A stretch of DNA of 64,000 nucleotides. Source: Ascidia mentula. Its lineage: Eukaryota > Chordata > Ascidiacea > Phlebobranchia > Ascidiidae. Location of the stretch: positions 2,790,001-2,854,000 of the forward strand of contig OX387203.1 of NCBI GenBank assembly GCA_947561715.1, written 5' to 3'. How positions within the stretch are numbered: position 1 is the stretch's first letter; each line of letters opens with the position of its first letter. The notes below the pieces were generated by a model that had not been told where the DNA came from, made no database searches, and saw only the letters and a list, made by a program, of their open reading frames with translations. The translations under genes and the position numbers were made by a program. Positions 9,101 through 34,217 of the stretch are shown here, in pieces.

Positions 9101-10115
9101 CATTTAAACGGTATACCTTAATCGCCACACGGCTTGTATGCATCGTAATGCCATATTTTAGATATTCCTAATATTCAAACCGATTACAGGCACCGCCGGA
9201 AGGCCAACCATGTCCTTGCGCAACAAAACACCTGTGACTTGCGCCTTTATTCAAGAAATGATGAGATACAAAACCCTTGGTCCTCTCGGTCTGCCCCACA
9301 TGACTACAAACGAAACACAACTGATGGGATATGAAATTCCGAAGGGTACAGAGGTAAAACGTTTCTCTGGACAAAGACCCAGTTATAACGCGTTTCACAT
9401 TTTGGAGTAACAGAAGCTTTCACCTTTTTATACTCAAGCATTTGGACATAAAAAATGACTCCTTATTTTGTAGCACCGGTTCAGGCAAAAACATGTCGCG
9501 AGGTCGTATGCATGTGGCAACTTACAATGTACAAAGCAATGATATCAACACAACGCCTATTTAAACTATGCTACCATAGATAGTGCTACCAAAGATAGTC
9601 GGAAGCTGTGTTGCATGAGCAGTTTCTGCAAGATCTTGCTCTTGCAACATCCAAAGATCATGCATGTAGACGTTATTACAGTGCTAAAATTTACATAAGT
9701 TTTCCAAAAATTACTCGGTAATATAGCATGTTTGGTCGGCACATTCATAGGCTACTATAATTTAAAACCATGCCCCTTGTTTCCCTCATTCTAGGTAATC
9801 CCAAACCTCTTGGGTGTTCACATGGACCCTGCAACATGGCCAGATCCCGAAGTGTTCAACCCTCATAGGCATATCGACGGGGACGGAAGGTTCGTTCCTT
9901 CCTCAAAGATTATTCCTTTTTCCGTCGGCGCCCGGTTTTGCCTCGGAGAGAGTTTAGCGAGGAACGAAGTTTACATATTCCTTGTGCGACTCCTGCAGAG
10001 TTTTTCCATTAGTTCGGCCAACAACCGTCCACCAAATATTGATGAATGCCATCTGTCAGCCAGTGTGAGCATTAAAGAGTGCGAAATTGTGTTGACTTGC
10101 AGGAGTTCTGCATGA
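6168..10115 (+). CDS. Cytochrome P450, CYP2 clan, complete (9 exons, 510 aa)
   Basis: Exons are 6168-6470, 6784-6926, 7172-7274, 7330-7439, 7702-7823, 7986-8107, 8748-8892, 9190-9353 and 9795-10115. They sum to 1533 nt, an exact 511 codons, with GT-AG introns and consistent phases. The protein is an ER-anchored mono-oxygenase. It has a hydrophobic N-terminal anchor (about residues 5-37), the hinge FPPGPRG, the I-helix oxygen-activation motif AGTET (315-319), the K-helix ExxR as EMMR (372-375), the meander FNPHRH (425-430) and the heme-thiolate loop FSVGARFCLG (446-455) with Cys453. DFIDAF before the I-helix is typical of the CYP2 clan. Length is normal for the family. Helix C has FKAQK where most P450s have WxxxR, so two heme-propionate contacts are substituted. 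The substrate cannot be read from sequence. Its last exon and 3' flank are copied at 38533-39395. Confidence 0.93.
7530..7630. repeat. Inverted repeat in P450 intron 4
   Basis: GCTGGTGCACTGTTTTGG near 7537-7554 is exactly complemented by CCAAAACAGTGCACCAGC near 7606-7623. Partial pairing extends beyond, and the loop is about 50 nt. The arms could fold in the pre-mRNA. It may be a tiny MITE or a local inverted duplication; no target duplication is obvious. Confidence 0.6.
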
Positions 10116-11639: not shown

Positions 11640-12166
11640 TTCTCCAATCTAATACCCATATAGGTCCTTAACAGCGGCTGAAAATTTTGGATGTAAATTG
11701 TTTCCAAAAAAGAGACGCGCCGCTTTCCTTCCATCTGTCCAAGGATGGTTGGGATCTTAAAGTCGACCTTGTGTGTTGGATTGGCCACAAGACGTTAACA
11801 AACTTCCGAAGAAAGGCTCGTCATGTGCTCTTTGAGTCTCGTGACAAGGTTCCGTCTTGTCTGGCCAATACATGATAAACCACAAGAACACGTGACACGG
11901 TAAAAAAACGTTGGTTCCCGGTCCCAAAGAGGAAATAAAGTGCCAAGCTTGTTGTTGTCAAAGAAGAGACGTAGGAGTGTGTTGCCTTGTGTGAGGTGGG
12001 CGACACAACTGCGAATTTCCTTTGATAAATGTTTTGAAGCAAGGCCGAGATAAAAAAGTCGCATAAGCAGGTGTTGCTGGGCTTGCTTTGTCGTCACTTT
12101 AAACTGGGTTTGGGTGTAACGCTTTTGCAGGAATGTAAAAACACAACGATCCAGAAAAGCCATCAA
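11640..12166 (-). pseudogene. Penelope-like retroelement relic: GIY-YIG endonuclease end
   Basis: The minus frame 12166-11795 reads through FYRVTCSCGLSCIGQTRR and LKEHMTSL, the C-CG-x-YIGQT-R-L-xR-xEH pattern of the GIY-YIG endonuclease of Penelope-like elements (YIG appears as CIG). After a stop at about 11795 the homology continues in another frame as HKVDFKIPTILGQ, then RRVSFLETIYI and NFQPLLRTY, the usual Hx...E-YI--xQPLL tail. At least one frameshift therefore splits the domain. The upstream reverse-transcriptase part is missing: homology stops at the edge of the tRNA-like array. It is a dead copy with no sign of a promoter. The GIY-YIG family call is firm; assignment to Penelope rests on the spacing of the C, H and E motifs. 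Confidence 0.72.
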
Positions 12167-12169
12167 CGG

Positions 12170-14071
12170 AGGGGGGCGTTACCCTCTACACCACGGCAGG
12201 TAAAGATAGTTTGATAACCTAATTGCTCTTTTAGCCTTCTTAGTAGAAGATTTTGCCTAAAAATAATCTGGACAATACCTACTTGACCTGGATGCGAAAT
12301 GTGGTGCAGAGCAATATGAGACGTGAGCTGTACCCCACGGCTGGTGACGATAGTGCGATGAAAGAAGAGCAGGTTAAGCTTGCATATTGCAGAGGTTTTA
12401 CAGCAAAATGATTGGGGTCAGCCCACCTTCGCGGGGGTTCGAACTGTGGTGCAGAACATTATGATATGAGAATTGTAACCTCTACACCACGCGCGGTGAC
12501 GGTGGTTCGATGAACTAATTGCCTTTTTAGCTTTCTTATTGCAGAATTTTTTACTGAAAACGATTTGAAACATAAGGACAATTTGAAGACGACAAACCGT
12601 CGCCAGTTGTGGTGTAGAGGTTAAAGTCTCATTCTTGCAATGCTCTGCAACCGAGTTCGAACCCCGGTAAAGGTAACATTCCCCATAACCGATAAGTCAC
12701 ATCGGGTTCGAACTATTCCCATTCACCGATAAACACTTACTGGCGACCGTCCTTAATATGGATGTCTGTCCCGACAAATATCTTAACGCACCCTCCAAAA
12801 AAGTCATTACAATAAATCTTGTAATAATAATGTGAGTCCTTGTAATTAATTGGTACATATCAGTGTAAGAACTGTTAAAGATAACTACTAACATGTCCAG
12901 TCCCGGTATTAAACCAAGAGCGATATATATGTACATACTTGATACATAGTAGTCACAATTAAGTCTCTCTTCCTGTAAATTCCGGTCAGTATCTATATTA
13001 GATCCTTGTCTATCCCCTGTAAGTCCCGGGAATAACCCAGAAGCGTTATAGCTTGATCTCACTAACCGTAAGTCCCGGTAATAAACATCGCGCTCAGTAT
13101 GTGTAATGGCCTGCTTAATAATAATCACAACCAGGAGACTTCCGCTGTAGATCAAGGTCAATAGTTATCATAACATAGTCTAACCACCAGGAGGTCCCGG
13201 CATAACCCAATAGCGTTAATTGGTAAATACAATATCTCCATTGTGTGAAAACCGCGGTAAGAAACCAGAAGAGCAGTAGGTCCTGCCTCGTAGTAGTAAT
13301 CAGAACTCACTCTCACCTTCACTAAGTCCCGCTCCAGTATCGTTAATAGTAACCTAAAACCCTAACCCGACCTAAACAGAATATCCAGAAAAAACAAGGG
13401 AACATACACAAATTTTTCTTAAATTTTGAAAAATCATTAGCTGACTAATCTCCTCGTGCGCCCGCTTCTGAGTTGGCCACCTGCCTATGCCCCCTGATGG
13501 GACACTTGCCCCCTGGTGGGGCGCTCCCTGATGGAGCATAAAGTGTGTTTTCGGACCTCGGTAGCCAACTCAGAAGCGGGGACTTCTTAGCCTGACTAAA
13601 CGCAGGGCTACCTGGCCGTGGTCCTTAGCCTGATTTCAGTGAGTTTAACGGGGGTGAGAGAGATAATTACCGAATTACTTTTACCTATCCGTGACAGGCA
13701 CACACACACGGAGAGGTGACACCAGCGTGAATTTAGATAGAGTGGGATAAGTCCGAACCCGAAGTGAATTAACGGTTACCGGGAAAGAAGTATTAACTTT
13801 ACCGGGGTTCGAACTGTGGTGCAGAGCATCAATAGAGGGGGGCGTTAACCTCTACACCACGGCTGGTGACGAATGTTTGCGAACCCAATTGCCCTTTTAG
13901 CTTTCTTATTGTAGAAGTTTTTGCCTCAAAATAATTGGGACAAGCCCTACTTCACCGGGGTTCGAACAGGGTTGGAGAGCATAACCAGAATGTGTCTTTA
14001 ACCGCTACACCACAATTACCGACGGTTTGCCGTCTTCAAATTGTCGTTGTATTTCAAATCGTCTTCAGGTA
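12170..14071 (-). repeat. Inverted array unit (left palindrome arm)
   Basis: From here to about 13970 the sequence is the reverse complement of 14170-15960. Paired landmarks are CCCTAACCCGACC at 13350-13371 with the TTAGGG-like motif at about 14770, and the module ending at 13803 with the module ending at 14340. Both pairs put the symmetry centre near 14071. The inner 200 bp or so are diverged modules rather than exact complements. Three diverged left-facing modules (about 12170, 12310 and 12435) occupy the outer end. Confidence 0.88.
13461..13580 (-). repeat. Hairpin element, inverted copy
   Basis: Reverse-complement copy of the hairpin found once in every direct unit. Its arms differ slightly here: the right arm reads GTAGCCAACTCAGAAGCGGG where the direct units have GTGGCC. 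Confidence 0.8.
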
Positions 14072-14272
14072 AAATACTGGAATAAGAAAGCTAAAAAAGC
14101 AATTAGTTCATCAAAACACCGTCACCAGTCGTGGTATAGAGGTTACAGATTCCTTCTCATTGTGCTCTGCACCACGGTTCGAACCCCAGTCAAGTAGGTA
14201 TTGTCAAGATTATTATTAGGCAAAAATTCTACAATGAGAAGGCTAAAAGGGCAATTAGGTTATCAAACATTC

Positions 14273-14345
14273 GTCACCAGCCGTGGTGTAGAGGTTAACG
14301 CCCCCCTCTATTGATGCTCTGCACCACAGTTCGAACCCCGGTAAA
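14273..14345 (+). repeat. Representative right-facing tRNA-like module
   Basis: An A box TGGTGTAGAGG at 14284-14294 fits TRGYNNARNNG exactly, and a B box GTTCGAACC at 14329-14337 fits GWTCRANNC, with 34 nt between them. This is normal spacing for a tRNA-type pol III promoter. The T stem does not pair, so the cloverleaf is lost: a tRNA-derived (SINE-type) sequence and not a working tRNA. About 60 similar modules face right across the array, with variable centres (CTCTATTGATGCTC, ATCTCATAATGCTCAG, CTACCCCGTAATGCTC). Confidence 0.8.
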
Positions 14346-14560
14346 GTTAATACTTCTTTCCCGGTAACCGTTAATTCACTTCGGGTTCGGACTTATCCCA
14401 CTCTAACTAAATTCACGCTGGTGTCACCAATCCGTGTGTGTGCCTGTCACGGATGGGTAAAAGTAATTCGGTAATTATCTCTCTCACCCCCGTTAAACTC
14501 ACTGAAATCAGGCTAAGGACCGCGGCCAGGTAGCCCTGCGTTTAGTCAGGCTAAGAAGTC

Positions 14561-14680
14561 CCCGCTTCTGAGTTGGCCACCGAGGTCCGAAAACACACTT
14601 TATGCTCCATCAGGGAGCGCCCCACCAGGGGGCAAGTGTCCCATCAGGGGGCATAGGCAGGTGGCCAACTCAGAAGCGGG
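14561..14680. repeat. Hairpin element of the array unit (type example)
   Basis: CCCGCTTCTGAGTTGGCCAC is repeated as its exact reverse complement at 14661-14680. The 80-nt loop holds short echoes: CCATCAGGG, CCCACCAGGG and CCCATCAGGG. It occurs once per unit. In units 3 and 4 the left arm is damaged (TTGACCTCCAAAACACTC), and unit 5 has lost part of the loop. It is MITE-like in shape, but no target-site duplication is visible. Confidence 0.85.
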
Positions 14681-14767
14681 CGCACAAGGAGATTAGTCAG
14701 CTAATGATTTTTCAAAATTTAAGAAAAATTTGTGTATGTCCCCTTGTTTTTTCTCGATATTCTGTTT

Positions 14768-14792
14768 AGGTCGGGTTAGGGTTTTAGGTTAC
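14768..14792 (+). repeat. Telomere-like motif in the unit linker
   Basis: GGGTTAGGGTTTTAGG occurs at the same place in every unit (near 14770, 16909, 19144, 21404, 23684, 25977, 28270, 30560 and 32877) and inverted near 13350. It holds one exact TTAGGG and one degenerate repeat, too few for a true telomere tract. Confidence 0.7.
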
Positions 14793-15475
14793 TATTACCG
14801 ATAGTGGAACGATATTTAGTGAAGGTGAGATTGAGTTCTGTTTACTACTGGGGAGGCATGACCTACTTCTCTTATGGTTTCGTACCGCAAGTTACTACGA
14901 AGGAAACATTGTATTTACCATTTAACGCTATTGGGTTATGCCGGGACCTCCTGGTGGTTGGACTATGTTATGATAACTATTGACCGTGATCTACAGCGGA
15001 AGTATCCGGGTTGTGATTATTATTAAGCAGGCCATTACTCATACTGAGCTCGATGTTTATTACCGGGACTTACGGTTAGTGAGATCAAGCTTTAACGCTT
15101 CTGGGTTATTCCCGGGACTTACAGGGGGATAGACAAGGATCTAATATAGATACTGACCGGAATTTACAGGAAGAGAGACTTAACTGTGACTAGTATTTAT
15201 TAGGTGTGAACATATTTATATCGCTCTTGGTTTAATACCGGGACTGGACACGTTAGTAGTTATCTTTAACAGTTCTTAGACTGTGATATACCAATTATTT
15301 ACAAGGATTCACATTACTATTACAGGATTTATTATGATGACTTTTTTGGAGGGTGCGTTAAGATATTTGTCGGGACAGACATCCATATTAAGGACGGTCG
15401 CCAGTAAGTGTTTATCGGTGAATGGGAATAGTTCGAACCCGACGTGACTTATCGGTTATGGGGAAAGTTACCTTT

Positions 15476-15545
15476 ACCGGGGTTCGAACTCGGGTGCAGA
15501 GCATTACAAGAATGTGCCTCTAACCTCTACACCACAACTGGCGAC
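15476..15545 (-). repeat. Representative left-facing tRNA-like module
   Basis: Read on the minus strand it has the A box TGGTGTAGAGG and a B box in CCCGAGTTCGAACCCCGG. Four of the five T-stem pairs are kept (CCGAG against CCCGG), so it is closer to a tRNA than the right-facing modules. One such module sits at the linker-side end of each unit (about 17625, 19855, 22115, 24395, 26690, 28980, 31262 and 33573), facing away from the others. Confidence 0.78.
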
Positions 15546-16699
15546 GGTTTGTCGTCTTCAAATTATAAATATTTTTCAAAACGTTTTCAGTCAAAAATTC
15601 GGCAATAAGACAGCTAAGAAGGCAATTAGTTCATCAAACAACCGTCACCACTCGTGGTGTGGAGGTTAAAATTCCTACCCCGTAATGCTCTGTACCTCAG
15701 TTCGAACCCCGGTGAGGTAGGGCTAGGCTAAATTATATTTAGGCAAAAAACTTCTACAATAAGAAGACCAAAAGGGCTATTAGGTTATCAAACATTCGTT
15801 ACCAGCCGTGGTGTAGAGGTTAACGCCCCCCTCTATTGATGCTAAGCACCACAGTTCGAACCCCGGTGAGTTAGGGCTTGGCCAAAATGTATTTAGGCAA
15901 AAAACTTCTACAATAAGAAAGCTAAAAGGGCAATTAGGTTGTCAAATATTCGTCACCAGCCGTGGTGTAGAGGTTAAAGCTCCGATCTCATAATGCTCAG
16001 CACCACAGTTCGAACCCCGGTGAGGTAGGGCTTGGCCAAATTATATTTAGGCAAAAAACTTCTGCAATAAGAAAGCTAAAAAGGCAATTAGGTTACTAAA
16101 CAAACGTCACCAGCCGTGGTGTAGAGGTTAACGCCCCCCTTTATTGATGGTCTCCACCGCTGTTCGAATCCCGGTCAAGTAGTGATTGCCCAAACTATTT
16201 TTAGGCAAACAACTTCGACAATAAGAAAGCTAAAAGGATAATTAGGTTATCAAACATTCGTCACCAGCCGTGGTGTAGAGGTTAACGTCCCCCTCTATTG
16301 ATGCTCTCCCCCGCTGTTCGAATCCCGGTCAAGTAGTGCTTGTCCAAATTTTTTTTAAGCAAAAGATCTACAATAAGAAAACTAAAAGGTTAGTTAGGTT
16401 ATCAAACATTCGTCACCAGCCGTGGTGTAGAGGTTAACGCCCCACTCTATTGATGCTCTACACCACAGTTCGAACCCCGGTAATGTTAATACTTCTTTCC
16501 CGGTAACCGTTAATTCACTTCGGGTTCGGACTTATCCCTCTCTAACTAAATTAACGCTGGTGTCACCTCTCCGTGTGTGTGCCTGTCACGGATGGGTAAA
16601 AGTAATTCGGTAATTATCTCTCTCATCCCCGTTAAACTCACTGAAATCAGGCTAAGGACCACGGCCAGGTAGCCCTGCGTTTAGTCAGGCTAAGAAGTC

Positions 16700-18968
16700 C
16701 CCGCTTCTGAGTTGGCCACCGAGGTCCGAAAACACACTTTATGCTCCATCAGGGAGCGCCCCACCAGGGGGCAAGTGTCCCATCAGGGGGCATAGGCAGG
16801 TGGCCAACTCAGAAGCGGGCGCACGAGGAGATTAGTCAGCCAATGATTTTTTAAAATTGAAGAAAAATTTGTGTATGTCCCCTTGTTTTTTCTGGATATT
16901 CCGTTTAGGTCGGGTTAGGGTTTTAGGTTACCATTAACAATAGTGGAACGGGACTTAGTTAATGTGAGATTGAGTTCTGTTTACTAGTGGGGAGGCCGGA
17001 CCTACTTCTCTTATGGTTTCTTACCGCGAGTTACTACGATGGAAACATTGTATTTACCATTTAACGCTATTGGGTTATGTCGGGACCTCTTGGTGGTTAG
17101 ACTAGGTTATGATAACTATTGACCGTGATCTACAGCGGAAGTCTCCTGGTTGTGATTATTATTAAGCAGGACATTACACATACTGAGCGCGATGTTTATT
17201 ACCGGGACTTACGGTTAGTGAGATCAAGCTTTAACGCTTCTGGGTTATTCCCGGGACTTACAGGGGGATAGACAAGGATTTAATATAGATACTGACCGGA
17301 ATTTACAGGAAGAGAGACTTAACTGTGACTAGTATTTATTAGGTGTGAACATATTTATATCGCTCTTGGTTTAATACCGGGACCTCACACGTTAGTAGTT
17401 ATCTTTAACAGTTCTTAGACTGTGATATACCAATTATTTACAAGGATTCACATTACTATTTCAGGATTTATTATGATGACTTTTTTGGAGGGTGCGTTAA
17501 GATATTTGTCGGGACAGACATCCATATTAAGGACGGTCGCCAGTAAGAGTTTATCGGTGAATGGGAATAGTTCGAACCCGACGTGACTTATCGGTTATGG
17601 GGAAAGTTATCTTTACCGGGGTTCGAACTCGGGTGCAGAGCATTACAAGAATGTGCCTCTAACCTCTACACCACAACTGGCGACGGTTTGTCGTCTTCAA
17701 ATTATAAATATTTTTCAAAACGTTTTCAGTCAAAAATTCTGCAATAAGACAGCTAAGAAGGCAATTAGTTCATCAAACAACCGTCACCACTCGTGGTGTA
17801 GAGGTTAAAATTCCTACCCCGTAATGCTCTGTACCTCAGTTCGAACCCCGGTGAGGTAGGGCTAGGCTAAATTATATTTAGGCAAAAAACTTCCACAATA
17901 AGAAGACCAAAAGGGCTATTAGGTTATCAAACATTCGTTACCAGCCGTAGTGTAGAGGTTAACGCCCCCCTCTATTGATGCTAAGCACCACAGTTCGAAC
18001 CCCGGTGAGGTAGGGCTTGGCCAAAATACATTTAGGCAAAAAACTTCTACAATAAGAAAGCTTAAAGGGCAATTAGGTTGTCAAATATTCGTCACCAGCC
18101 GTGGTGTTGAGGTTAAAGCTCCCATCTCATAATGCTCAGCACCACAGTTCGAACCCTGGTGAGGTAGGGCTTGGCCAAATTATATTTTGGCAAAAAACTT
18201 CTACAATAAGAAAGCTAAAGAGGCAATTAGTTTATCAAATGTTCGTCACCAGCCGTGGTGTAGAGGTAAAAGCTCCCATCTCATAATGCTCAGCACCACA
18301 GTTCGAACCCCGGTGAGGTAGGGCTTGGCCAAATTATATTTAGGCAAAAAACTTCTACAATAAGAAAGCTAAAAGGGCAATTAGGTTACTAAACAAACGT
18401 CACCAGCCGTGGTGTAGAGGTTAACGCCCCCCTCTATAGATGGTCTCCACCGCTGTTCGAATCCCGGTCAAGTAGTGATTGCCCAAACTATTTTTAGGCA
18501 AACAACTTCGACAACAAGAAAGCTAAAAGGATAAATATGTTATCAAACATTCGTCACCAGCCGTGGTGTAGAGGTTAACGTCCCCCTCTATTGATGCTCT
18601 CCACCGCTGTTCGAATCCCGGTCAAGTAGTGTTTGTCCAAATTATTTTTAAGCAAAAGATCTACAATACGAAAGCTAAAAGGTTAGTTAGGTTATCAAAC
18701 ATTCGTCACCAGCCGTGGTGTAGAGGTTAACGTCCCCCTCTATTGATGCTCTACACCACAGTTCGAACCCCCGGTAAAGTTAATACTTCTTTCCCGGTAA
18801 TTATCCCTCTCTAACTAAATTAACGCTGGTGTCACCTCTCCGTGTGTGTGCCTGTCACGGATGGGTAAAAGTAATTCGGTAATTATCTCTCTCATCCCCG
18901 TTAAACTCACTGAAATCAGGCTAAGGACCACGGCCAGGTAGCCCTGCGTTTAGTCAGGCTAAGAAGTC
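16700..18968 (+). repeat. Array unit 2
   Basis: Unit of 2269 bp with seven right-facing modules. About 29 bp are missing from the tail near 18800, where the CCGTTAATTCACTTCGGG block of other units is absent. Confidence 0.85.
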
Positions 18969-21228
18969 CCCGCTTCTGAGTTGACCTCCAAAACACTCAT
19001 TATGCTCCATCAGGGAGCGCCCCACCAGGGGGCAAGTGTCCCATCAGGGGGCATAGGCAGGTGGCCAACTCAGAAGCGGGCGCACGAGGAGATGAAGAAA
19101 AATTTGTGTATGTCCCCTTCTTTTTTCTGGATATTCCGTTTAGGTCGGGTTAGGGTTTTAGGTTACCATTAACGATAGTGGAACGGGACTTAGTTAATGT
19201 GAGATTGAGTTCTGTTTACTAGTGGGGAGGCCGGACCTACTTCTCTTATGGTTTCTTACCGCGAGTTACTACGATGGAAACATTGTATTTACCATTTAAC
19301 GCTATTGGGTTATGCCGGGACCTCTTGGTGGTTAGACTAGGTTATGATAACTATTGACCTTGATCTACAGCGGAAGTCTCCTGGTTGTGATTATTATTAA
19401 GCAGGACATTACACATACTGAGCTCGATGTTTATTACCGGGACTTACGGTTAGTGAGATCAAGCTTTAACGCTTCTGGGTTATTCCCGGGACTTACAGGG
19501 GGATAAACAAGGATTTAATATAGATACTGACCGGAATTTACAGGAAGAGAGACTTAACTGTGACTAGTATTTATTAGGTGTGAACATATTTATATCGCTC
19601 TTGGTTTAATACCGGGACCTCACACGTTAGTAGTTATCTTTAACAGTTCTTAGACTGTGATATACCAATTATTTACAAGGATTCACATTACTATTACAGG
19701 ATTTATTAAGATGACTTTTTTGGAGGGTGCGTTAAGATATTTGTCGGGACAGACATCCATATTAAGGACGGTCGCCAGTAAGAGTTTATCGGTGAATGGG
19801 AATAGTTCGAACCCGACGTGACTTATCGGTTATGGGGAAAGTTATCTTTACCGGGGTTCGAACTCGGGTGCAGAGCATTACAAGAATGTGCCTCTAACCT
19901 CTACACCACAACTGGCGACGGTTTGTCGTCTTCAAATTATAAATATTTTTCAAAACGTTTTCAGTCAAAAATTCTGCAATAAGACAGCTAAGAAGGCAAT
20001 TAGTTCATCAAACAACCGTCACCACTCGTGGTGTAGAGGTTAAAATTCCTACCCCGTAATGCTCTGTACCTCAGTTCGAACCCCGGTGAGGTAGGGCTAG
20101 GCTAAATTATATTTAGGCAAAAAACTTCCACAATAAGAAGACCAAAAGGGCTATTAGGTTATCAAACATTCGTTACCAGCCGTAGTGTAGAGGTTAACGC
20201 CCCCCTCTATTGATGCTAAGCACCACAGTTCGAACCCCGGTGAGGTAGGGCTTGGCCAAAATACATTTAGGCAAAAAACTTCTACAATAAGAAAGCTTAA
20301 AGGGCAATTAGGTTGTCAAATATTCGTCACCAGCCTTGGTGTTGAGGTTAAAGCTCCCATCTCATAATGCTCAGCACCACAGTTCGAACCCTGGTGAGGT
20401 AGGGCTTGGCCAAATTATATTTTGGCAAAAAACTTCTACAATAAGAAAGCTAAAGAGGCAATTAGTTTATCAAATGTTCGTCACCAGCCGTGGTGTAGAG
20501 GTAAAAGCTCCCATCTCATAATGCTCAGCACCACAGTTCGAACCCCGGTGAGGTAGGGCTTGGCCAAATTATATTTAGGCAAAAAACTTCTACAATAAGA
20601 AAGCTAAAAGGGCAATTAGGTTACTAAACAAACGTCACCAGCCGTGGTGTAGAGGTTAACGCCCCCCTCTATAGATGGTCTCCACCGCTGTTCGAATCCC
20701 GGTCAAGTAGTGATTGCCCAAACTATTTTTAGGCAAACAACTTCGACAATAAGAAAGCTAAAAGGATAAATATGTTATCAAACATTCGTCACCAGCCGTG
20801 GTGTAGAGGTTAACGTCCCCCTCTATTGATGCTCTCCACCGCTGTTCGAATCCCGGTCAAGTAGTGTTTGTCCAAATTATTTTTAAGCAAAAGATCTACA
20901 ATAAGAAAGCTAAAAGGTTAGTTAGGTTATCAAACATTCGTCACCAGCCGTGGTGTAGAGGTTAACGCCCCCCTCTATTGATGCTCTACACCACAGTTCG
21001 AACCCCCGGTAAAGTTAATACTTCTTTCCCGGTAACCGTTAATTCACTTCGGGTTCGGACTTATCCCTCTCTAACTAAATTAACGCTGGTGTCACCTCTC
21101 CGTGTGTGTGCCTGTCACGGATGGGTAAAAGTAATTCGGTAATTATCTCTCTCATCCCCGTTAAACTCACTGAAATCAGGCTAAGGACCACGGCCAGGTA
21201 GCCCTGCGTTTAGTCAGGCTAAGAAGTC
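18969..21228 (+). repeat. Array unit 3
   Basis: Unit of 2260 bp. It shares with unit 4 the damaged hairpin arm and a shortened segment after the hairpin (GAGGAGATGAAGAAAAATTT). The two units look almost identical throughout. Confidence 0.85.
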
Positions 21229-23494
21229 CCCGCTTCTGAGTTGACCTCCAAAACACTCATTATGCTCCATCAGGGAGCGCCCCACCAGGGGGCAAGTGTC
21301 CCATCAGGGGGCATAGGCAGGTGGCCAACTCAGAAGCGGGCGCACGAGGAGATGAAGAAAAATTTGTGTATGTCCCCTTCTTTTTTCTGGATATTCCGTT
21401 TAGGTCGGGTTAGGGTTTTAGGTTACCATTAACGATAGTGGAACGGGACTTAGTTAATGTGAGATTGAGTTCTGTTTACTAGTGGGGAGGCCGGACCTAC
21501 TTCTCTTATGGTTTCTTACCGCGAGTTACTACGATGGAAACATTGTATTTACCATTTAACGCTATTGGGTTATGCCGGGACCTCTTGGTGGTTAGACTAG
21601 GTTATGATAACTATTGACCTTGATCTACAGCGGAAGTCTCCTGGTTGTGATTATTATTAAGCAGGACATTACACATACTGAGCTCGATGTTTATTACCGG
21701 GACTTACGGTTAGTGAGATCAAGCTTTAACGCTTCTGGGTTATTCCCGGGACTTACAGGGGGATAAACAAGGATTTAATATAGATACTGATCGGAATTTA
21801 CAGGAAGAGAGACTTAACTGTGACTAGTATTTATTAGGTGTGAACATATTTATATCGCTCTTGGTTTAATACCGGGACCTCACACGTTAGTAGTTATCTT
21901 TAACAGTTCTTAGACTGTGATATACCAATTATTTACAAGGATTCACATTACTATTACAGGATTTATTATGATGACTTTTTTGGAGGGTGCGTTAAGATAT
22001 TTGTCGGGACAGACATCCATATTAAGGACGGTCGCCAGTAAGAGTTTATCGGTGAATGGGAATAGTTCGAACCCGACGTGACTTATCGGTTATGGGGAAA
22101 GTTATCTTTACCGGGGTTCGAACTCGGGTGCAGAGCATTACAAGAATGTGCCTCTAACCTCTACACCACAACTGGCGACGGTTTGTCGTCTTCAAATTAT
22201 AAATATTTTTCAAAACGTTTTCAGTCAAAAATTCTGCAATAAGACAGCTAAGAAGGCAATTAGTTCATCAAACAACCGTCACCACTCGTGGTGTAGAGGT
22301 TAAAATTCCTACCCCGTAATGCTCTGTACCTCAGTTCGAACCCCGGTGAGGTAGGGCTAGGCTAAATTATATTTAGGCAAAAAACTTCCACAATAAGAAG
22401 ACCAAAAGGGCTATTAGGTTATCAAACATTCGTTACCAGCCGTAGTGTAGAGGTTAACGCCCCCCTCTATTGATGCTAAGCACCACAGTTCGAACCCCGG
22501 TGAGGTAGGGCTTGGCCAAAATACATTTAGGCAAAAAACTTCTACAATAAGAAAGCTTAAAGGGCAATTAGGTTGTCAAATATTCGTCACCAGCCTTGGT
22601 GTTGAGGTTAAAGCTCCCATCTCATAATGCTCAGCACCACAGTTCGAACCCTGGTGAGGTAGGGCTTGGCCAAATTATATTTTGGCAAAAAACTTCTACA
22701 ATAAGAAAGCTAAAGAGGCAATTAGTTTATCAAATGTTCGTCACCAGCCGTGGTGTAGAGGCAAAAGCTCCCATCTCATAATGCTCAGCACCACAGTTCG
22801 AACCCCGGTGAGGTAGGGCTTGGCCAAATTATATTTAGGCAAAAAACTTCTACAATAAGAAAGCTAAAAGGGCAATTAGGTTACTAAACAAACGTCACCA
22901 GCCGTGGTGTAGAGGTTAACGCCCCCCTCTATAGATGGTCTCCACCGCTGTTCGAATCCCGGTCAAGTAGTGATTGCCCAAACTATTTTTAGGCAAACAA
23001 CTTCGACAATAAGAAAGCTAAAAGGATAAATATGTTATCAAACATTCGTCACCAGCCGTGGTGTAGAGGTTAACGTCCCCCTCTATTGATGCTCTCCACC
23101 GCTGTTCGAATCCCGGTCAAGTAGTGTTTGTCCAAATTATTTTTAAGCAAAAGATCTACAATAAGAAAGCTAAAAGGTTAGTTAGGTTATCAAACATTCG
23201 TCACCAGCCGTGGTGTAGAGGTTAACGCCCCCCTCTATTGATGCTCTACACCACAGTTCGAACCCCCGGTAAAGTTAATACTTCTTTCCCGGTAACCGTT
23301 AATTCACTTCGGGTTCGGACTTATCCCTCTCTAACTAAATTAACGCTGGTGTCACCTCTCCGTGTGTGTGCCTGTCACGGATGGGTAAAAGTAATTCGAT
23401 AATTATCTCTCTCATCCCCGTTAAACTCACTGAAATCAGGCTAAGGACCACGACCACGGCCAGGTAGCCCTGCGTTTAGTCAGGCTAAGAAGTC
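21229..23494 (+). repeat. Array unit 4
   Basis: Near-identical to unit 3 except for scattered single bases and a short duplication CCACGACCACGG near the right end. Seven right-facing modules and one left-facing module. Confidence 0.85.
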
Positions 23495-25768
23495 CCCGCT
23501 TCTGAGTTGGCCACCGAGGTCCGAAAACACACTTTATGCTCCATCATGGAGCGCCCCACCAGGGGGCATAGGCAGGTGGCCAACTCAGAAGCGGGCGCAC
23601 GAGGAGATTAGTCAGCCAATGATTTTTCAAAATTGAAGAAACATTTGTGTATGTTCCCTTGTTTTTTCTGGATATTCCGTTTAGGTCGGGTTAGGGTTTT
23701 AGGTTACCATTAACAATAGTGGAACGGGACTTAGTTAATGTGAGATTGAGTTCTGTTTACTAGTGGGGAGGCCGGACCTACTTCTCTTATGCTTTCTTAC
23801 CGCGAGTTACTACGATGGAAACATTGTATTTACCATTTAACGCTATTGGGTTATGTCGGGACCTCTTGGTGGTTAGACTAGGTTATGATAACTATTGACC
23901 GTGATCTACAGCGGAAGTCTCCTGGTTGTGATTATTATTAAGCAGGACATTACACATACTGAGCTCGATGTTTATTACCGGGACTTACGGTTAGTGAGAT
24001 CAAGCTTTAACGCTTCTGGGTTATTCCCGGGACTTACAGGGGGATAAACAAGGATTTAATATAGATACTGATCGGAATTTACAGGAAGAGAGACTTAACT
24101 GTGACTAGTATTTATTAGGTGTGAACATATTTATATCGCTCTTGGTTTAATACCGGGACCTCACACGTTAGTAGTTATCTTTAACAGTTCTTAGACTGTG
24201 ATATACCAATTATTTACAAGGATTCACATTACTATTACAGGATTTATTATGATGACTTTTTTGGAGGGTGCGTTAAGATATTTGTCGGGACAGACATCCA
24301 TATTAAGGACGGTCGCCAGTAAGAGTTTATCGGTGAATGGGAATAGTTCGAACCCGACGTGACTTATCGGTTATGGGGAAAGTTATCTTTACCGGGGTTC
24401 GAACTCGGGTGCAGAGCATTACAAGAATGTGCCTCTAACCTCTACACCACAACTGGCGACGGTTTGTCGTCTTCAAATTATAAATATTTTTCAAAACGTT
24501 TTCAGTCAAAAATTCTGCAATAAGACAGCTAAGAAGGCAATTAGTTCATCAAACAACCGTCACCACTCTTGGTGTAGAGGTTAAAATTCCTACCCCGTAA
24601 TGCTCTGTACCTCAGTTCGAACCCCGGTGAGGTAGGGCTAGGCTAAATTATATTTAGGCAAAAAACTTCCACAATAAGAAGACCAAAAGGGCTATTAGGT
24701 TATCAAACATTCGTTACCAGCCGTAGTGTAGAGGTTAACGCCCCCCTCTGTTGATGCTAAGCACCACAGTTCGAACCCCGGTGAGGTAGGGCTTGGCCAA
24801 AATACATTTAGGCAAAAAACTTCTACAATAAGAAAGCTTAAAGGGCAATTAGGTTGTCAAACATTCGTCACCAGCCGTGGTGTTGAGGTTAAAGCTTCCA
24901 TCTCATAATGCTCAGCACCACAGTTCGAACCCTGGTGAGGTAGGGCTTGGCCAAATTATATTTTGGCAAAAAACTTCCACAATAAGAAAGCTAAAGAGGC
25001 AATTAGTTTATCAAATGTTCGTCACCAGCCGTGGTGTAGAGGTAAAAGCTCCCATCTCATAATGCTCAGCACCACAGTTCGAACCCCGGTGAGGTAGGGC
25101 TTGGCCAAATTATATTTAGGCAAAAAACTTCTACAATAAGAAAGCTAAAAGGGCAATTAGGTTACTAAACAAACGTCACCAGCCGTGGTGTAGAGGTTAA
25201 CGCCCCCCTCTATTGATGGTCTCCACCGCTGTTCGAATCCCGGTCAAGTAGTGATTGCCCAAACTATTTTTAGGCAAACAACTTCGACAATAAGAAAGCT
25301 AAAAGGATAAATATGTTGTCAAACATTCGTCACCAGCCGTGGTGTAGAGGTTAAGGTCCCCCTCTATTGATGCTCTCCACCGCTGTTCGAATCCCGGTCA
25401 AGTAGTGTTTGTCCAAATTATTTTTAAGCAAAAGATCTACAATAAGAAAGCTAAAAGGTTAGTTAGGTTATCAAACATTCGTCACCAGCCGTGGTGTAGA
25501 GGTTAACGCCCCCCTCTATTGATGCTCTACACCACAGTTCGAACCCCGGTAAAGTTAATACTTCCTTCCCGGTAACCGTTAATTCACTTCGGGTTCGGAC
25601 TTATCCCTCTCTAACTAAATTAACGCTGGTGTCACCTCTCCGTGTGTGTGCCTGTCACGGATGGGTAAAAGTAATTCGGTAATTATCTCTCTCATCCCCG
25701 TTAAACTCACTGAAATCAGGCTAAGGACCACGGCCAGGTAGCCCTGCGTTTAGTCAGGCTAAGAAGTC
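23495..25768 (+). repeat. Array unit 5
   Basis: Unit of 2274 bp. Its hairpin loop is shorter because one CAGGG echo is deleted. Its module variants (CTCTTGGTG, CTCTGTTGATG) are shared with unit 6. Confidence 0.85.
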
Positions 25769-28061
25769 CCCGCTTCTGAGTTGGCCACCGAGGTCCGAAA
25801 ACACACTTTATGCTCCATCAGGGAGCGCCCCACCAGGGGGCAAGTGTCCCATCAGGGGGCATAGGCAGGTGGCCAACTCAGAAGCGGGCGCACGAGGAGA
25901 TTAGTCAGCCAATGACTTTTCAAAATTTAAGAAAAATTTGTGTATGTCCCCTTGTTTTTTCTGGATATTCTGTTTAGGTCGGGTTAGGGTTTTAGGTTAC
26001 AATTAACGATAGTGGAACGGGACTTAGTTAATGTGAGATTGAGTTCTGTTTACTAGTGGGGAGGCCGGACCTACTTCTCTTATGGTTTCTTACCGCGAGT
26101 TACTACGATGGAAACATTGTATTTACCATTTAACGCTATTGGGTTATGTCGGGACCTCTTGGTGGTTAGACTAGGTTATGATAACTATTGACCGTGATCT
26201 ACAGCGGAAGTCTCCTGGTTGTGATTATTATTAAGCAGGACATTACACATACTGAGCGCGATGTTTATTACCGGGACTTACGGTTAGTGAGATCAAGCTT
26301 TAACGCTTCTGGGTTATTCCCGGGACTTACAGGGGGATAGACAAGGATTTAATATAGATACTGACCGGAATTTACAGGAAGAGAGACTTAACTGTGACTA
26401 GTATTTATTAGGTGTGAACATATTTATATCGCTCTTGGTTTAATACCGGGACCTCACACGTTAGTAGTTATCTTTAACAGTTCTTAGACTGTGATATACC
26501 AATTATTTACAAGGATTCACATTACTATTACAGGATTTATTATGATGACTTTTTTGGAGGGTGCGTTAAGATATTTGTCGGGACAGACATCCATATTAAG
26601 GACGGTCGCCAGTAAGAGTTTATCGGTGAATGGGAATAGTTCGAACCCGACGTGACTTATCGGTTATGGGGAAAGTTATCTTTACCGGGGTTCGAACTCG
26701 GGTGCAGAGCATTACAAGAATGTGCCTCTAACCTCTACACCACAACTGGCGACGGTTTGTCGTCTTCAAATTATAAATATTTTTCAAAACGTTTTCAGTC
26801 AAAAATTCTGCAATAAGACAGCTAAGAAGGCAATTAGTTCATCAAACAACCGTCACCACTCTTGGTGTAGAGGTTAAAATTCCTACCCCGTAATGCTCTG
26901 TACCTCAGTTCGAACCCCGGTGAGGTAGGGCTAGGCTAAATTATATTTAGGCAAAAAACTTCCACAATAAGAAGACCAAAAGGGCTATTAGGTTATCAAA
27001 CATTCGTTACCAGCCGTAGTGTAGAGGTTAACGCCCCCCTCTGTTGATGCTAAGCACCACAGTTCGAACCCCGGTGAGGTAGGGCTTGGCCAAAATACAT
27101 TTAGGCAAAAAACTTCTACAATAAGAAAGCTTAAAGGGCAATTAGGTTGTCAAACATTCGTCACCAGCCGTGGTGTTGAGGTTAAAGCTTCCATCTCATA
27201 ATGCTCAGCACCACAGTTCGAACCCTGGTGAGGTAGGGCTTGGCCAAATTATATTTTGGCAAAAAACTTCCACAATAAGAAAGCTAAAGAGGCAATTAGT
27301 TTATCAAATGTTCGTCACCAGCCGTGGTGTAGAGGTAAAAGCTCCCATCTCATAATGCTCAGCACCACAGTTCGAACCCCGGTGAGGTAGGGCTTGGCCA
27401 AATTATATTTAGGCAAAAAACTTCTACAATAAGAAAGCTAAAAGGGCAATTAGGTTACTAAACAAACGTCACCAGCCGTGGTGTAGAGGTTAACGCCCCC
27501 CTCTATTGATGGTCTCCACCGCTGTTCGAATCCCGGTCAAGTAGTGATTGCCCAAACTATTTTTAGGCAAACAACTTCGACAATAAGAAAGCTAAAAGGA
27601 TAAATATGTTGTCAAACATTCGTCACCAGCCGTGGTGTAGAGGTTAAGGTCCCCCTCTATTGATGCTCTCCACCGCTGTTCGAATCCCGGTCAAGTAGTG
27701 TTTGTCCAAATTATTTTTAAGCAAAAGATCTACAATAAGAAAGCTAAAAGGTTAGTTAGGTTATCAAACATTCGTCACCAGCCGTGGTGTAGAGGTTAAC
27801 GCCCCCCTCTATTGATGCTCTACACCACAGTTCGAACCCCGGTAAAGTTAATACTTCCTTCCCGGTAACCGTTAATTCACTTCGGGTTCGGACTTATCCC
27901 TCTCTAACTAAATTAACGCTGGTGTCACCTCTCCGTGTGTGTGCCTGTCACGGATGGGTAAAAGTAATTCGGTAATTATCTCTCTCATCCCCGTTAAACT
28001 CACTGAAATCAGGCTAAGGACCACGGCCAGGTAGCCCTGCGTTTAGTCAGGCTAAGAAGTC
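25769..28061 (+). repeat. Array unit 6
   Basis: Unit of 2293 bp with an intact hairpin and seven right-facing modules. Its variants are shared with units 5 and 7, and it looks like a recent copy from the same source. Confidence 0.85.
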
Positions 28062-30350
28062 CCCGCTTCTGAGTTGGCCACCGAGGTCCGAAAACACACT
28101 TTATGCTCCATCAGGGAGCGCCCCACCAGGGGGCAAGTGTCCCATCAGGGGGCATAGGCAGGTGGCCAACTCAGAAGCGGGCGCACGAGGAGATTAGTCA
28201 GCCAATGACTTTTCAAAATTTAAGAAAAATTTGTGTATGTCCCCTTGTTTTTTCTGGATATTCTGTTTAGGTCGGGTTAGGGTTTTAGGTTACAATTAAC
28301 GATAGTGGAACGGGACTTAGTTAATGTGAGATTGAGTTCTGTTTACTAGTGGGGAGGCCGGACCTACTTCTCTTATGGTTTCTTACCGCGAGTTACTACG
28401 ATGGAAACATTGTATTTACCATTTAACGCTATTGGGTTATGTCGGGACCTCTTGGTGGTTAGACTAGGTTATGATAACTATTGACCGTGATCTACAGCGG
28501 AAGTCTCCTGGTTGTGATTATTATTAAGCAGGACATTACACATACTGAGCGCGATGTTTATTACCGGGACTTACGGTTAGTGAGATCAAGCTTTAACGCT
28601 TCTGGGTTATTCCCGGGACTTACAGGGGGATAGACAAGGATTTAATATAGATACTGACCGGAATTTACAGGAAGAGAGACTTAACTGTGACTAGTATTTA
28701 TTAGGTGTGAACATATTTATATCGCTCTTGGTTTAATACCGGGACCTCACACGTTAGTAGTTATCTTTAACAGTTCTTAGACTGTGATATACCAATTATT
28801 TACAAGGATTAACATTACTATTTCAGGATTTATTATGATGACTTTTTTGGAGGGTGCGTTAAGATATTTGTCGGGACAGACATCCATATTAAGGACGGTC
28901 GCCAGTAAGAGTTTATCGGTGAATGGGAATAGTTCGAACCCGACGAGACTTATCGGTTATGGGGAAAGTTATCTTTACCGGGGTTCGAACTCGGGTGCAG
29001 AGCATTACAAGAATGTGCCTCTAACCTCTACACCACAACTGGCGACGGTTTGTCGTCTTCAAATTATAAATATTTTTCAAAACGTTTTCAGTCAAAAATT
29101 CTGCAATAAGACAGCTAAGAAGGCAATTAGTTCATCAAACAACCGTCACCACTCGTGGTGTAGAGGTTAAAATTCCTACCCCGTAATGCTCTGTACCTCA
29201 GTTCGAACCCCGGTGAGGTAGGGTAGGCTAAATTATATTTAGGCAAAAAACTTCCACAATAAGAAGACCAAAAGGGCTATTAGGTTATCAAACATTCGTT
29301 ACCAGCCGTAGTGTAGAGGTTAACGCCCCCCTCTATTGATGCTAAGCACCACAGTTCGAACCCCGGTGAGGTAGGGCTTGGCCAAAATACATTTAGGCAA
29401 AAAACTTCTACAATAAGAAAGCTTAAAGGGCAATTAGGTTGTCAAATATTCGTCAACAGCCGTGGTGTTGAGGTTAAAGCTTCCATCTCATAATGCTCAG
29501 CACCACAGTTCGAACCCCGGTAAGGTAGGGCTTGGCCAAATTATATTTAGGCAAAAAACTTCTACAATAAGAAAGCTAAAAGGGCAATTAGGTTACTAAA
29601 CAAACGTCACCAGCCGTGGTGTAGAGGTTAACGCCCCCCTCTATTGATGGTCTCCACCGCTGTTCGAATCCCGGTCAAGTAGTGACTGCCAAACTATTTT
29701 TAGGCAAACAACTTCGACAATAAGAAAGCTAAAAGGATAAATATGTTATCAAACATTCGTCACCAGCCGTGGTGTAGAGGTTAACGTCCCCCTCTATTGA
29801 TGCTCTCCACCGCTGTTCGAATCCCGGTCAAGTAGTGTTTGTCCAAATTATTTTTAAGCAAAAGATCTACAATAAGAAAGCTAAAAGGTTAGTTAGGTTA
29901 TCAAACATTCGTCACCAGCCGTGGTGTAGAGGTTAACGCCCCCCTCTATTGATGCTCTACACCACAGTTCGAACCCCGGTAAAGTAGTGTTTGTCCAAAT
30001 TATTTTTAAGCAAAAGATCTACAATAAGAAAGCTAAAAGGTTAGTTAGGTTATCAAACATTCGTCACCAGCCGTGGTGTAGAGGTTAACGCCCCCCTCTA
30101 TTGATGCTCTACACCACAGTTCGAACCCCGGTAAAGTTAATACTTCTTACCCGGTAACCGTTAATTCACTTCGGGTTCGGACTTATCCCTCTCTAACTAA
30201 ATTAACGCTGGTGTCACCTCTCCGTGTGTGTGCCTGTCACGGATGGGTAAAAGTAATTCGGTAATTATCTCTCTCATCCCCGTTAAACTCACTGAAATCA
30301 GGCTAAGGACCACGGCCAGGTAGCCCTGCGTTTAGTCAGGCTAAGAAGTC
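28062..30350 (+). repeat. Array unit 7
   Basis: Unit of 2289 bp. One module of the usual order is missing near 29500, and an extra copy of the last module has been added at about 29985-30135, so the module count stays at seven. Confidence 0.85.
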
Positions 30351-32509
30351 CCCGCTTCTGAGTTGGCCACCGAGGTTCGAAAACACACTTTATGCTCCAT
30401 CAGGGAGCGCCCCACCAGGGGGCAAGTGTCCCATCAGGGGGGCATAGGCAGGTGGCCAACTCAGAAGCGGGCGCACGAGGAGATTAGTCAGCCAATGATT
30501 TTTCAAAATTGAAGAAAAATTTGTGTATGTCCCCTTCTTTTTTCTGGATATTCCGTTTAGGTCGGGTTAGGGTTTTAGGTTACCATTAACGATAGTGGAA
30601 CGGGTCTTAGTTAATGTGAGATTGAGTTCTGTTTACTAGTTGGGAGGCCGGACTTACTTCTCTTATGGTTTCTTTCCGCGAGTAACAACGGTGGAAACAT
30701 TGTGTTTACCATTTAACGCTATTGGGTTATGCCGGGACCTCCTGGTGGTTAGACTACGTTATGCCAACTATTGACCGTGATCTACAGCGGAAGTCTCCCG
30801 GTTGTGATTATCATTAAGCAGGCCATTACACATACTGAGCGCGATGTTTTTTCCGGGACTTACGGTTAGTGAGATCAAGCTATAACGCTTCTTGGTTATT
30901 CCCGGGACTTACAGGGGGATAGATCTAATATAGACACTGACTGGAATTTACACGAAGAGAGACTTGATTGTGACTAGTATTTATTAGGTGTGAACATATT
31001 TATGTCGCTCTTGGTTTAATACCGGGGCTGGACACGTTAGTAATTATCTTTAACAGTTCTTACATTGATATGTACCAATTATTTACAAGGATTCACATTA
31101 TTATTACAGGATTTATTATAATGACTTTTTTAGAGGGTGCGTTAAGATATTTGTCGGGACAGACATCCATATTAAGGACGGTCGCCAGTAAGAGTTTATC
31201 GGTGAATGGGAATAGTTCGAACCCGATGTGACTTATCGGTTATGGGGAAAGTTACCTTTACCGGGGTTCGAACTCGGGTGCAGAGCATTACAAGAATGTG
31301 CCTCTAACCTCTACACCACAACTGGCGACGGATTGTCGTCTTCAAATTATCCTTATTTTTTAAATCGTTTTCAGTCAAAAATTCTGCAATAAGACAGCTA
31401 AGAAGGCAATTAGTTCATCAAACAACCGTCACCACTCGTGGTGTAGAAGTTAAAATTCCTACCCCGTAATGCTCTGTACCTCAGTTCGAGCCCCGGTGAG
31501 GAAGGGCTAGGCCAAATTATATTTTGGCAAAAAACTTCTACAATAAGAAGACCAAAAGGGCTATTAGGTTATCAAACATTCGTCACCAGCCGTGGTGTAG
31601 AGGTTAACGCCCCCATCTATTGATGCTCAGCACCACAGTTCGAACCCCGGTGAGGTAGGGCTTGGCCAAAATACATTTAGGCAAAAAACTTCTACAATAA
31701 GAAAGCTTAAAGGGCAATTAGGTTGTCAAATATTCGTCACCAGCCGTGGTGTTGAGGTTAAAGCTCCCATTTCATAATGCTCAGCACCACAGTTCGAACC
31801 CTGGTGAGGTAGGGCTTGGCCAAATTATATTTAGGCAAAAAACTTCTACAATAAGAAAGCTAAAAGGGCAATCAGGTTAGCAAATATTCGTCACCAGCCG
31901 TGGTGTAGAGGTAAAAGCTCCCATCTCATAATGCTCAGCACCACAGTTCGAACCCCGGTGAGGTAGGGCTTGGCCAAACTATATTTAGGCAAAAAACTTC
32001 TACAATAAGAAAGCTAAAAGGGCAATTAGGTTATAAGATATTCGCCACCAGCCGTGGTGTAGAGGTAAAAGCTCCCATCTCATAATGCTCAGCACCACAG
32101 TTCGAACCCCGGTGAGGTAGGGCTTGACCAAATTATATTTAGGCAAAAACTTCTACAATAAGAAAACTAAAAGGGCAATTAGGTTACTAGACAAATGTCA
32201 CCAGCCGTGGTGTAGAGGTTAACGTCCCCCTCTATTGATTCTCTCCACCGCTGTTCGAATCCCGGTCAAGTAGTGCTTGTCCAAATTAGTTTTAAGCAAA
32301 ATATCTACTATAAGAAAGCTAAAAGGTTAGTTAGGTTATCAAACATTCGTCACCAGCCGTGGTGTAGAGGTTAACGCCCCACTCTATTGATGCTCTACAC
32401 CACAGTTCGAACCCCGGTAAAGTTAATACTTCTTTCCCGGTAACTGTTAATTCACTTCGGGTTCGGACTTATCCCTCTGTAACTAAATTAACGCTGGTGT
32501 CACCTCTCC

Positions 32510-32551
<42 letters not shown>

Positions 32552-32668
32552 CTGTCACGGATGGGTAAAATTAATTCGGTAATTATCTCTCTCATCCCCG
32601 TTAAACTCACTGAAATCAGGCTAAGGACCACGGCCAGGTAGCCCTGCGTTTAGTCAGGCTAAGAAGTC
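30351..32668 (+). repeat. Array unit 8
   Basis: The longest unit, 2318 bp, and more diverged in the linker than units 2-7. Its tail holds the expanded (GT)n at 32511-32550. Seven right-facing modules. Confidence 0.85.
32511..32550. repeat. (GT)n microsatellite, 40 bp
   Basis: An expansion of the short CGTGTGTGTGCC tract that is present in the tail of every array unit. Only this unit has expanded it. Confidence 0.95.
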
Positions 32669-34217
32669 CCCGCTTCTGAGTTGGCCACCGAGGTTCGAAA
32701 ACACACTTTATGCTCCATCAGGGAGCGCCCCACCAGGGGGCAAGTGTCCCATCAGGGGGCATAGGCAGGTGGCCAACTCAGAAGCGGGCGCACGAGGAGA
32801 TTAGTCATCCAATGATTTTTCAAAATTTAAGAAAAATTTGTGTATGTCCCCTTGTTTTTTCTGGATATTCTGTTTAGGTCGGGTTAGGGTTTTAGGTTAC
32901 CATTAACGATAGTGGAACGGGACTTAGTTAATGTGAGTTTGAGTTCTGTTTACTAGTGGGGAGGCCGGACCCACTTCTCTTATGGTTTCTTAAAGCGGGT
33001 TACTACGATGGAAACATTGTATTTGCCATTTAACGCTATTGGGTTATGCCGGGACCTCCTGGTGGTTAGACTATGTTATGATAACTATTGACCGTGATCT
33101 ACAGCGGAAGTCTCCTGGTTGTGATTATTATTAAGCAGGCCATTACATGTACTGAGCGCGATGTTTATTACCGGGACTTACGGTCGGTGAGATCAAGCTA
33201 TAACGCTTCTGGGTTATTCCCGGGACTTACAAGGATCTAATATAGATACTGACTGGAATTTACACGAAGAGAGACTTAATTGCGACTAGTATTTATTAGG
33301 TGTGAACATATTTATATCGCTCTTGGTTTAATACCGGGACTGGACACGTTAGTAATTATCTTTAACAGTTTTTACACTGATATGTACCAATTAATTACAA
33401 GGATTCACATTATTATTACAGGATTTTTTATGATGACTTTTTTGGAGGGTGCGTTAAGATATTTGTCGGGATAGACATCCATATTAAGGACAGTCGCCAG
33501 TAAGTGTTTTTCGGTGAAAGGGAATAGTTCGAACCCGACGTGACTTTATCGGTTATGGGGAAAGTTACCTTTACCGGGGTTCGAACTCGGGTGCAGAGCA
33601 TTACAAGAATGTGACTTTAACCTCTACACCACAACTGGCGACGGTTTGTCGACTTCAAATTATCCTTATGTTTCAAATGGTTTTCAATCAAAAATTCTGC
33701 AATAAGGCAGCTAAGAAGGCAATTAGCTCATCAAACCACCGTCACCACTCGTGGTGTAGAGGTAACAATTCCCACCCCGTAATGCTCTGTACCTCAGTTC
33801 GAACCCCGGTGAGGTAGGTCTTGGCCAAATTATATTTAGGCAAAAAACTTCTACAATAAGAAAGCTAAAAGGGCAATCAGGTTAGCAAATATTCGTCACC
33901 AGCCGTGGTGTAGAGGTAAAAGCTCCCATCTCATAATGCTCAGCACCACAGTTCGAACCCCGGTGAGGTAGGGCTTGGCCAAATTATTTTTAGGCAAAAA
34001 ACTTCTACAATAAGAAAGCTAAAAGATTAGTTAGGTGATCAAACATTCGTCACCAGCCGTGGTGTAAATTCAACGTCCCCCTCTATTGATGCTCTGCACA
34101 ATAGTTCGAACCCCGGTAAAGTTAAAACTCCTTTCCCGGTAACCGTTAATTCACTTCGGGTTCGGACTTATCCCACTCTAACTATATTAACGCTGGTGTC
34201 ACCTCTCCGTGTGTGTT
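32669..34217 (+). repeat. Array unit 9, truncated
   Basis: About 1.55 kb with only three right-facing modules. It ends in CTCCGTGTGTGT at about 34217, directly before unique DNA upstream of GPCR A. It is diverged from the central units, as expected at an array edge. Confidence 0.85.

Follow-up and report, generated by a model that had tools for sequence, protein, structure and literature searches.

The window analysed here, a stretch of 64,000 nucleotides, sits within chromosome 7 of Ascidia mentula and contains a tandem array in which tRNA-like promoter boxes recur many times over. What kind of object is this array, and what has kept its boxes alike? The earlier note described a higher-order array of about 2.27 kb per unit, built of modules of about 153 bp. 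We confirm the array, but its units are not made of modules alone. The boxes, their spacing, the T-runs, the pattern of conservation, the copy number and the location are read directly from the DNA. The reading that we favour, with a probability of about 0.7, is that they belong to a multi-copy family of Pol III non-coding RNA genes, arranged in facing pairs with promoter-only modules piled alongside. The array would then be a locally amplified block of this family, which lies on one chromosome as far as searched.

Layout of the array and of its repeat unit

The array and its module runs were delimited as follows.

12170..34217, no strand: whole array (TRF, A/B boxes, module HMM, junctions)
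15603..16410, plus strand: internal promoter module run (TRF, module HMM, column conservation)
17732..18703, plus strand: internal promoter module run (TRF, module HMM)
19967..20938, plus strand: internal promoter module run (TRF, module HMM)
22227..23198, plus strand: internal promoter module run (TRF, module HMM)
24508..25479, plus strand: internal promoter module run (TRF, module HMM)
26801..27772, plus strand: internal promoter module run (TRF, module HMM)
29094..30061, plus strand: internal promoter module run (TRF, module HMM)
31377..32347, plus strand: internal promoter module run (TRF, module HMM)
33690..34117, plus strand: last, shorter module run (TRF, junction analysis)

The period-154 repeat falls into nine TRF runs from 15,603 to 34,117, and the array segment holds 75 HMM matches to the module of about 154 bp, counting partial and reversed ones. 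A and B boxes (up to 2 mismatches) span positions 12,183-34,157, with 10 matches elsewhere in the window. Measured between terminal junctions from 14,347 to 32,423, the units are 2,139-2,294 bp long, the last one being shortened. Each combines a single reversed module with as many as seven direct ones and with about 1.1 kb of non-module DNA, and the leftmost unit is inverted relative to the rest of the array. A 28-nt core motif comes next at 8 of the 11 terminal junctions of the window and a copy carrying one shared set of lesions at 2, and one junction is truncated by the array end. Within the window's array the units are 92-99% alike in their core, compared with 79-91% between arrays; units are thus closer within than between arrays, as in a higher-order satellite. 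The description of each unit as the same ordered set of modules had missed the 1.1 kb between the module runs, which turned out to be the main object: it holds two putative terminator-bounded units per repeat, overlooked in the earlier note, which by alignment are the most constrained sequence present.

An open frame with CSCGLSCIGQTRRNLVTRLKEH abuts the left edge of the array on the minus strand (11795-12178). We take it to resemble the GIY-YIG end of a Penelope-like retroelement; the frame matched no Pfam family.

Promoter boxes of the modules

Strict pairs of A and B boxes at tRNA-like spacing number 48 in positions 12,001-34,300 and 0 in the other 41.7 kb of the window, while order-1 Markov simulations gave a mean of 0.00 (20 simulations per stretch). 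The two boxes lie 45 columns apart, start to start, as in type 2 Pol III promoters, which bears out the earlier statement that they fit the Pol III consensus at normal spacing. Taken alone, the A-box 11-mer is unspecific (424 genome matches, against 127 for the reversed control). Column by column, the boxes are indeed the best-conserved parts of the internal modules, as had been supposed. Among 143 windows of eleven columns, locus-weighted over 230 of these modules, the B box ranks first with 1.83 bits per column and the A box third with 1.75, against 1.07-1.15 bits outside the boxes, with the caveat that the module HMM was seeded with window copies having an exact A box. Nearly all columns are conserved in the terminal modules (50) and the reversed ones (39), and the boxes are less outstanding there: of 124 windows in the former the A box ranks 25th and the B box 5th, of 109 in the latter 18th and 4th. 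The A and B boxes of the modules look to be under selection. The cloverleaf, described earlier as decayed, is absent: over the whole window, ARAGORN found 0 tRNA genes and no Rfam family reached its gathering score. The one internal module whose fold was predicted did no better than its shuffles (z 0.59).

Two further signals accompany the boxes. The first TTTT lies 20-29 nt past the B box in 150 of 230 internal modules; since AAAA is even commoner than TTTT within 60 nt of internal B boxes (196/230 and 163/230), only the fixed position of this T-run counts. Over the same distance, TTTT occurs in 0/50 terminal and 0/39 reversed modules, and AAAA in 1 and 0. A TA-rich box lies 40-41 nt upstream of the A box in 156 of the 204 internal and 39 of the 47 terminal modules that could be scored, compared with 4 and 0 at a control position.

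We propose that the internal modules are promoter-only copies that accumulated beside the left gene of each pair; they probably load TFIIIC and TFIIIB and keep the locus open. One could also regard the whole as TFIIIC-binding architectural arrays, similar to extra-TFIIIC sites or tDNA insulators, in which the boxes organise chromatin and any RNA is a by-product. The internal modules suit this account, as they keep their boxes and the single one folded has no unusual structure, and a human tRNA tandem repeat has been proposed as a boundary (PMC4041453). However, it leaves the TA-rich box unexplained and, for this and the further reasons given below, we consider it unlikely.

Two putative facing genes in each unit

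The basic unit would consist of two Pol III genes that face each other and resemble one another in their 5′ parts, named here the left and the right gene. The candidate left genes of the window are the following.

16411..16850, plus strand: left RNA gene, representative (conservation block, T-run, fold z -6.65, alignment A1)
16690..16840, plus strand: most constrained part of the left RNA (fold z -7.34, copy number of the 28-nt motif)
13430..13871, minus strand: left RNA gene copy in the inverted unit (in A1)
14272..14711, plus strand: left RNA gene copy (in A1)
23199..23626, plus strand: shorter left RNA gene copy, 428 bp (left out of A1)
25480..25919, plus strand: left RNA gene copy (in A1)
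27773..28212, plus strand: left RNA gene copy (ends placed relative to the core motif at 28,058)
30062..30502, plus strand: left RNA gene copy (in A1)
32348..32819, plus strand: longer left RNA gene copy, 472 bp (left out of A1)
18704..19085, plus strand: damaged left gene, approximate ends (stem arm altered, main terminator lost)
20939..21345, plus strand: damaged left gene, approximate ends (lesions identical to those of the copy at 18704..19085)

In the representative copy, the inferred start is 12 bp upstream of the A box and a T-run stands at the 3′ end. We aligned 25 of the 46 motif copies, drawn from all 20 loci of the family. The 25-bp means of the commonest letter are 0.89-1.00 over the left block (16,416-16,840); they are 0.36-0.80 for the 200 bp upstream and 0.00-0.68 for the spacer at 16,916-17,515. 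This block is about 430 bp long and has sharp borders: some 12 bases ahead of the A box the share of the commonest letter jumps from at most 0.80 to 0.98, and it drops to 0.5-0.7 shortly past the T-run. Left blocks of 12 loci share 95-99% pairwise identity, and the flanks of six of these 69-92%. When locus 5.058 was compared with loci 8.19, 4.36, 6.84, 5.90 and 4.77, the flank 2-4 kb off was 72, 70, 69, 83 and 92% alike and the left blocks 98.0, 97.3, 98.2, 99.1 and 98.9%, respectively. In a pair of loci compared over 9 kb, the two windows within the block ranked highest of 42 (0.982 and 0.991; the next reached 0.977). The left block appears to have been under strong constraint while the flanking DNA drifted, and we infer that Pol III transcribes the gene pairs and that the RNA itself is what is selected.

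A block could also be conserved without selection, in a satellite kept alike by gene conversion or by recent spread. The greater likeness of units within than between arrays does imply local homogenisation, and every known copy is on one chromosome, as recent spread would have it. We nevertheless give this account little credence: conversion tracts would need to end at the inferred start and at the T-run at scattered loci, near which the spacer hardly aligns, and conversion cannot favour 11-bp boxes within 154-bp modules. An architectural role, for its part, leaves about 370 bp past the B box, as constrained as the boxes, unexplained.

Two of the 11 left-gene copies of the window are damaged; these neighbours share their lesions, which indicates that the damaged unit was itself duplicated. 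The first TTTT is found at the end of the block, at the same place, in 40 of 41 copies examined, a count to be read knowing that copies were chosen by the 28-nt motif, so that decayed ones are under-counted. Copy 4775802 lacks the main T-run, and in copy 2490293 no A box was recognised at up to 2 mismatches. Alignment A1 omits 5 of the 43 distinct left blocks, three of which have an odd length. A coding function of the block was rejected, with stops in all six frames; its 82 variable columns divide into 29, 28 and 25 by codon place and show no bias.

The RNA of the left gene would be about 436 nt long and strongly folded (z -6.65 and -6.07 against shuffles, for two copies). Its most constrained part is predicted to form a stem of 21 bp that ends in three hairpins with AUCA and ACCA loops. 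Compensatory pairs were seen at 0 of the 122 predicted pairs across 38 copies because the sequence hardly varies, and the antisense strand folds nearly as strongly (z -5.69). The 5′ parts shared by left and right genes would be a tRNA-like promoter region that is predicted as two hairpins, and in the predicted folds both RNAs start with two similar hairpins. A permissive Rfam scan of 15,400-18,000 returned four matches, every one below its cut-off, and SRP RNA, the match by which a 7SL derivation would be recognised, was absent from the Rfam scans. Two other identities were rejected: telomerase RNA, as the GGGTTAGGG stretch that the window's spacer contains is not kept from locus to locus, and a viral origin, as 0 viral contigs carried the exact 22-nt core motif.

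The candidate right gene starts in the reversed module and runs towards the left gene.

16866..17675, minus strand: right RNA gene, representative (from the reversed module leftwards to the facing terminator)
17516..17690, minus strand: conserved 5′ part of the right gene (25-bp means 0.76-1.00)
16916..17515, minus strand: spacer, taken to belong to the right RNA (divergent, TTTT-free on the minus strand, with a repeated GTAAGTCCCGGKAATAACCCA-like motif)
16845..16870, no strand: facing terminators (plus-strand T-run for the left RNA, minus-strand T-run for the right RNA)

The conserved 5′ part contains the reversed module and a second B-box-like stretch, and is less strictly conserved than the left block. 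The right RNA would be longer and variable, about 480-900 nt with degenerate repeats in its 3′ part, and the two genes would stop at terminators that face each other. The right-gene spacers are 376-799 bp long and hardly alignable between loci. On their transcribed strand TTTT occurs in 0 of 43, AAAA 1-11 times in each. From shuffled spacers 0.1-1.7 TTTT would be expected in each, 26.5 summed over the 43 units and 14.2 with one unit per locus (20 loci). Only the sum is telling, as 0.17-0.88 of a spacer's own shuffles are TTTT-free and no spacer is individually significant, and the units of one array are not independent within it. In the right gene, 42 of 43 units have their first TTTT in the conserved T-run that faces the left terminator; in unit 2813491 it lies in the T-run after that. 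Left and right genes alike have a T-run at their end and none within, as do type 2 Pol III genes, and such TTTT-free spacers with facing T-runs are also left unexplained by the architectural account. Counted as CCCGG, the GTAAGTCCCGGKAATAACCCA-like motif occurs 115 times in the 43 spacers, against 11 in base shuffles, and 3 of the 43 have no copy. Over its full length, the right RNA shows no excess of structure relative to shuffles (z 0.35). Aligned in inverted orientation, the reversed and the terminal module are 79-83% alike over about 85 bp. At loci 4.776 (L070) and 5.896 (L073), further sequence with a GGTTCGAACC box was seen past the reversed module.

Placing on one chromosome and relation to known systems

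Our genome searches covered 195.84 Mb in 79 contigs; the published Ascidia mentula assembly is given as 197.0 Mb in 95 scaffolds (PMC11109543). With up to 3 mismatches allowed, the 28-nt core motif was found 67 times, in 66 cases exactly and in one with a single mismatch, against 0 for the control. All 67 are on a single contig (C71, chromosome 7), at 20 separate loci between 1.487 and 8.405 Mb. The 17-nt module motif (1 mismatch) gave 279 matches (control 1) and the composite A-to-B pattern 158 (control 0); the first 100 of the 279 and the first 100 of the 158 are all on this contig. The genome search thus provided copy number and location, with 20 loci on one chromosome and no unique site. 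With the 67 core motifs and the first 100 of 158 composites on one contig, the genome-wide dispersal of a SINE was not seen. Among the matches listed none is on another contig, and the SINE-to-satellite conversion suggested earlier finds no support.

This placing also tells against a non-autonomous mobile element, SINE-like or foldback-like with tRNA-like inverted ends, that was turned into a satellite. The inverted match of reversed and terminal modules is what such ends might leave. At the two solo loci 4.775 and 5.058, where target-site duplications were sought, similarity runs on in pieces over about 9 kb, far past the unit, and no element ends are visible; we regard this origin as very unlikely. 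The flank of locus 5.058 has 24 matches, all on C71 and including five other loci. The solo loci are, judging from these comparisons, larger duplicated stretches, and the array of the window seems to have amplified such a centre. Intrachromosomal duplication and rearrangement could be the cause of the one-chromosome placing.

Other repeats were seen during these searches. A 420-450-bp element occurs in several copies and both orientations around the C71 solo loci (L083 7843-8264 and its inverted partners), and a tandem repeat of about 190 bp (L083 2643-3752) adjoins the gene pair at each of the two loci aligned over 9 kb. Scoring 63 of 19,702 tRNA candidates also showed a tandem array of true tRNA genes, mostly spaced 303 bp, on contig C70 at about 14.199-14.223 Mb.

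The proposal of a special boundary between the P450 gene and the receptor cluster is not supported, as the family is found at 20 loci. The argument from position is itself weak: the last exon of P450 flanks the array on both sides (window 9795-10115 and 38706-38975), its two copies being 92.5% alike over the first 240 bp and diverging towards the end. P450 sequence on both sides likewise speaks against the architectural account. Over 7 Mb of chromosome 7 there is one of the 20 loci about every 0.36 Mb, and the RNAs might act in cis, the loci marking this part of the chromosome for pairing, folding or expression. We hold this to be improbable; it would differ from Xist and roX, long Pol II RNAs, in relying on an abundant Pol III RNA. 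On contig C79 (19,461 bp) lies a COX1 gene with AGA and AGG codons at glycine positions, and the ascidian mitochondrial code translates it well. Ascidians are hermaphrodite, which weakens the sex-chromosome or dosage-compensation role that the one-chromosome placing had prompted. It is weakened as well by the assembly, which lists no sex chromosomes (PMC11109543).

For RNA, the genome paper names polyA RNA-seq data (PMC11109543), in which the predicted Pol III RNAs would probably be missed. If transcribed, the favoured gene family would represent a structured RNA without an Rfam match, strongly constrained and present in at least 67 copies on one chordate chromosome. It would offer a test of why Pol III genes collect promoter-only neighbours, and of whether confinement to one chromosome arose by chance through local duplication or reflects a function. 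A literature search (titles, abstract openings, best matches) returned no description of this RNA family of Ascidia mentula.

At extra-TFIIIC sites and tDNA insulators, B boxes are conserved without a tRNA. The array resembles them in this respect and differs in that an A box, a TA-rich box, T-runs and a long conserved body are also kept. The human 1q23.3 tRNA tandem repeat is similarly large, carries Pol III genes and is conserved only in small parts, and unlike the array it has tRNA genes and a CTCF site (PMC4041453). The Drosophila 1.688X satellites are also a family enriched in the euchromatin of one chromosome, but they are AT-rich and tied to a sex chromosome (PMC11228850). In rodents, 4.5SH genes derive from 7SL RNA; there are hundreds of them, with one copy to each tandem repeat of 4-5 kb, and both 4.5SH and 4.5SI genes need a TATA-like box at -31/-24 (PMC10137851). 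The RNA of Ascidia mentula differs from 4.5SH in being without an Rfam match, in its facing pairs and in the promoter-only modules piled alongside. The two would have in common a Pol III RNA restricted to one lineage, A and B boxes and a tandem repeat (PMC10137851), together with a TATA-like box, to which we liken the TA-rich box of the Ascidia mentula modules.
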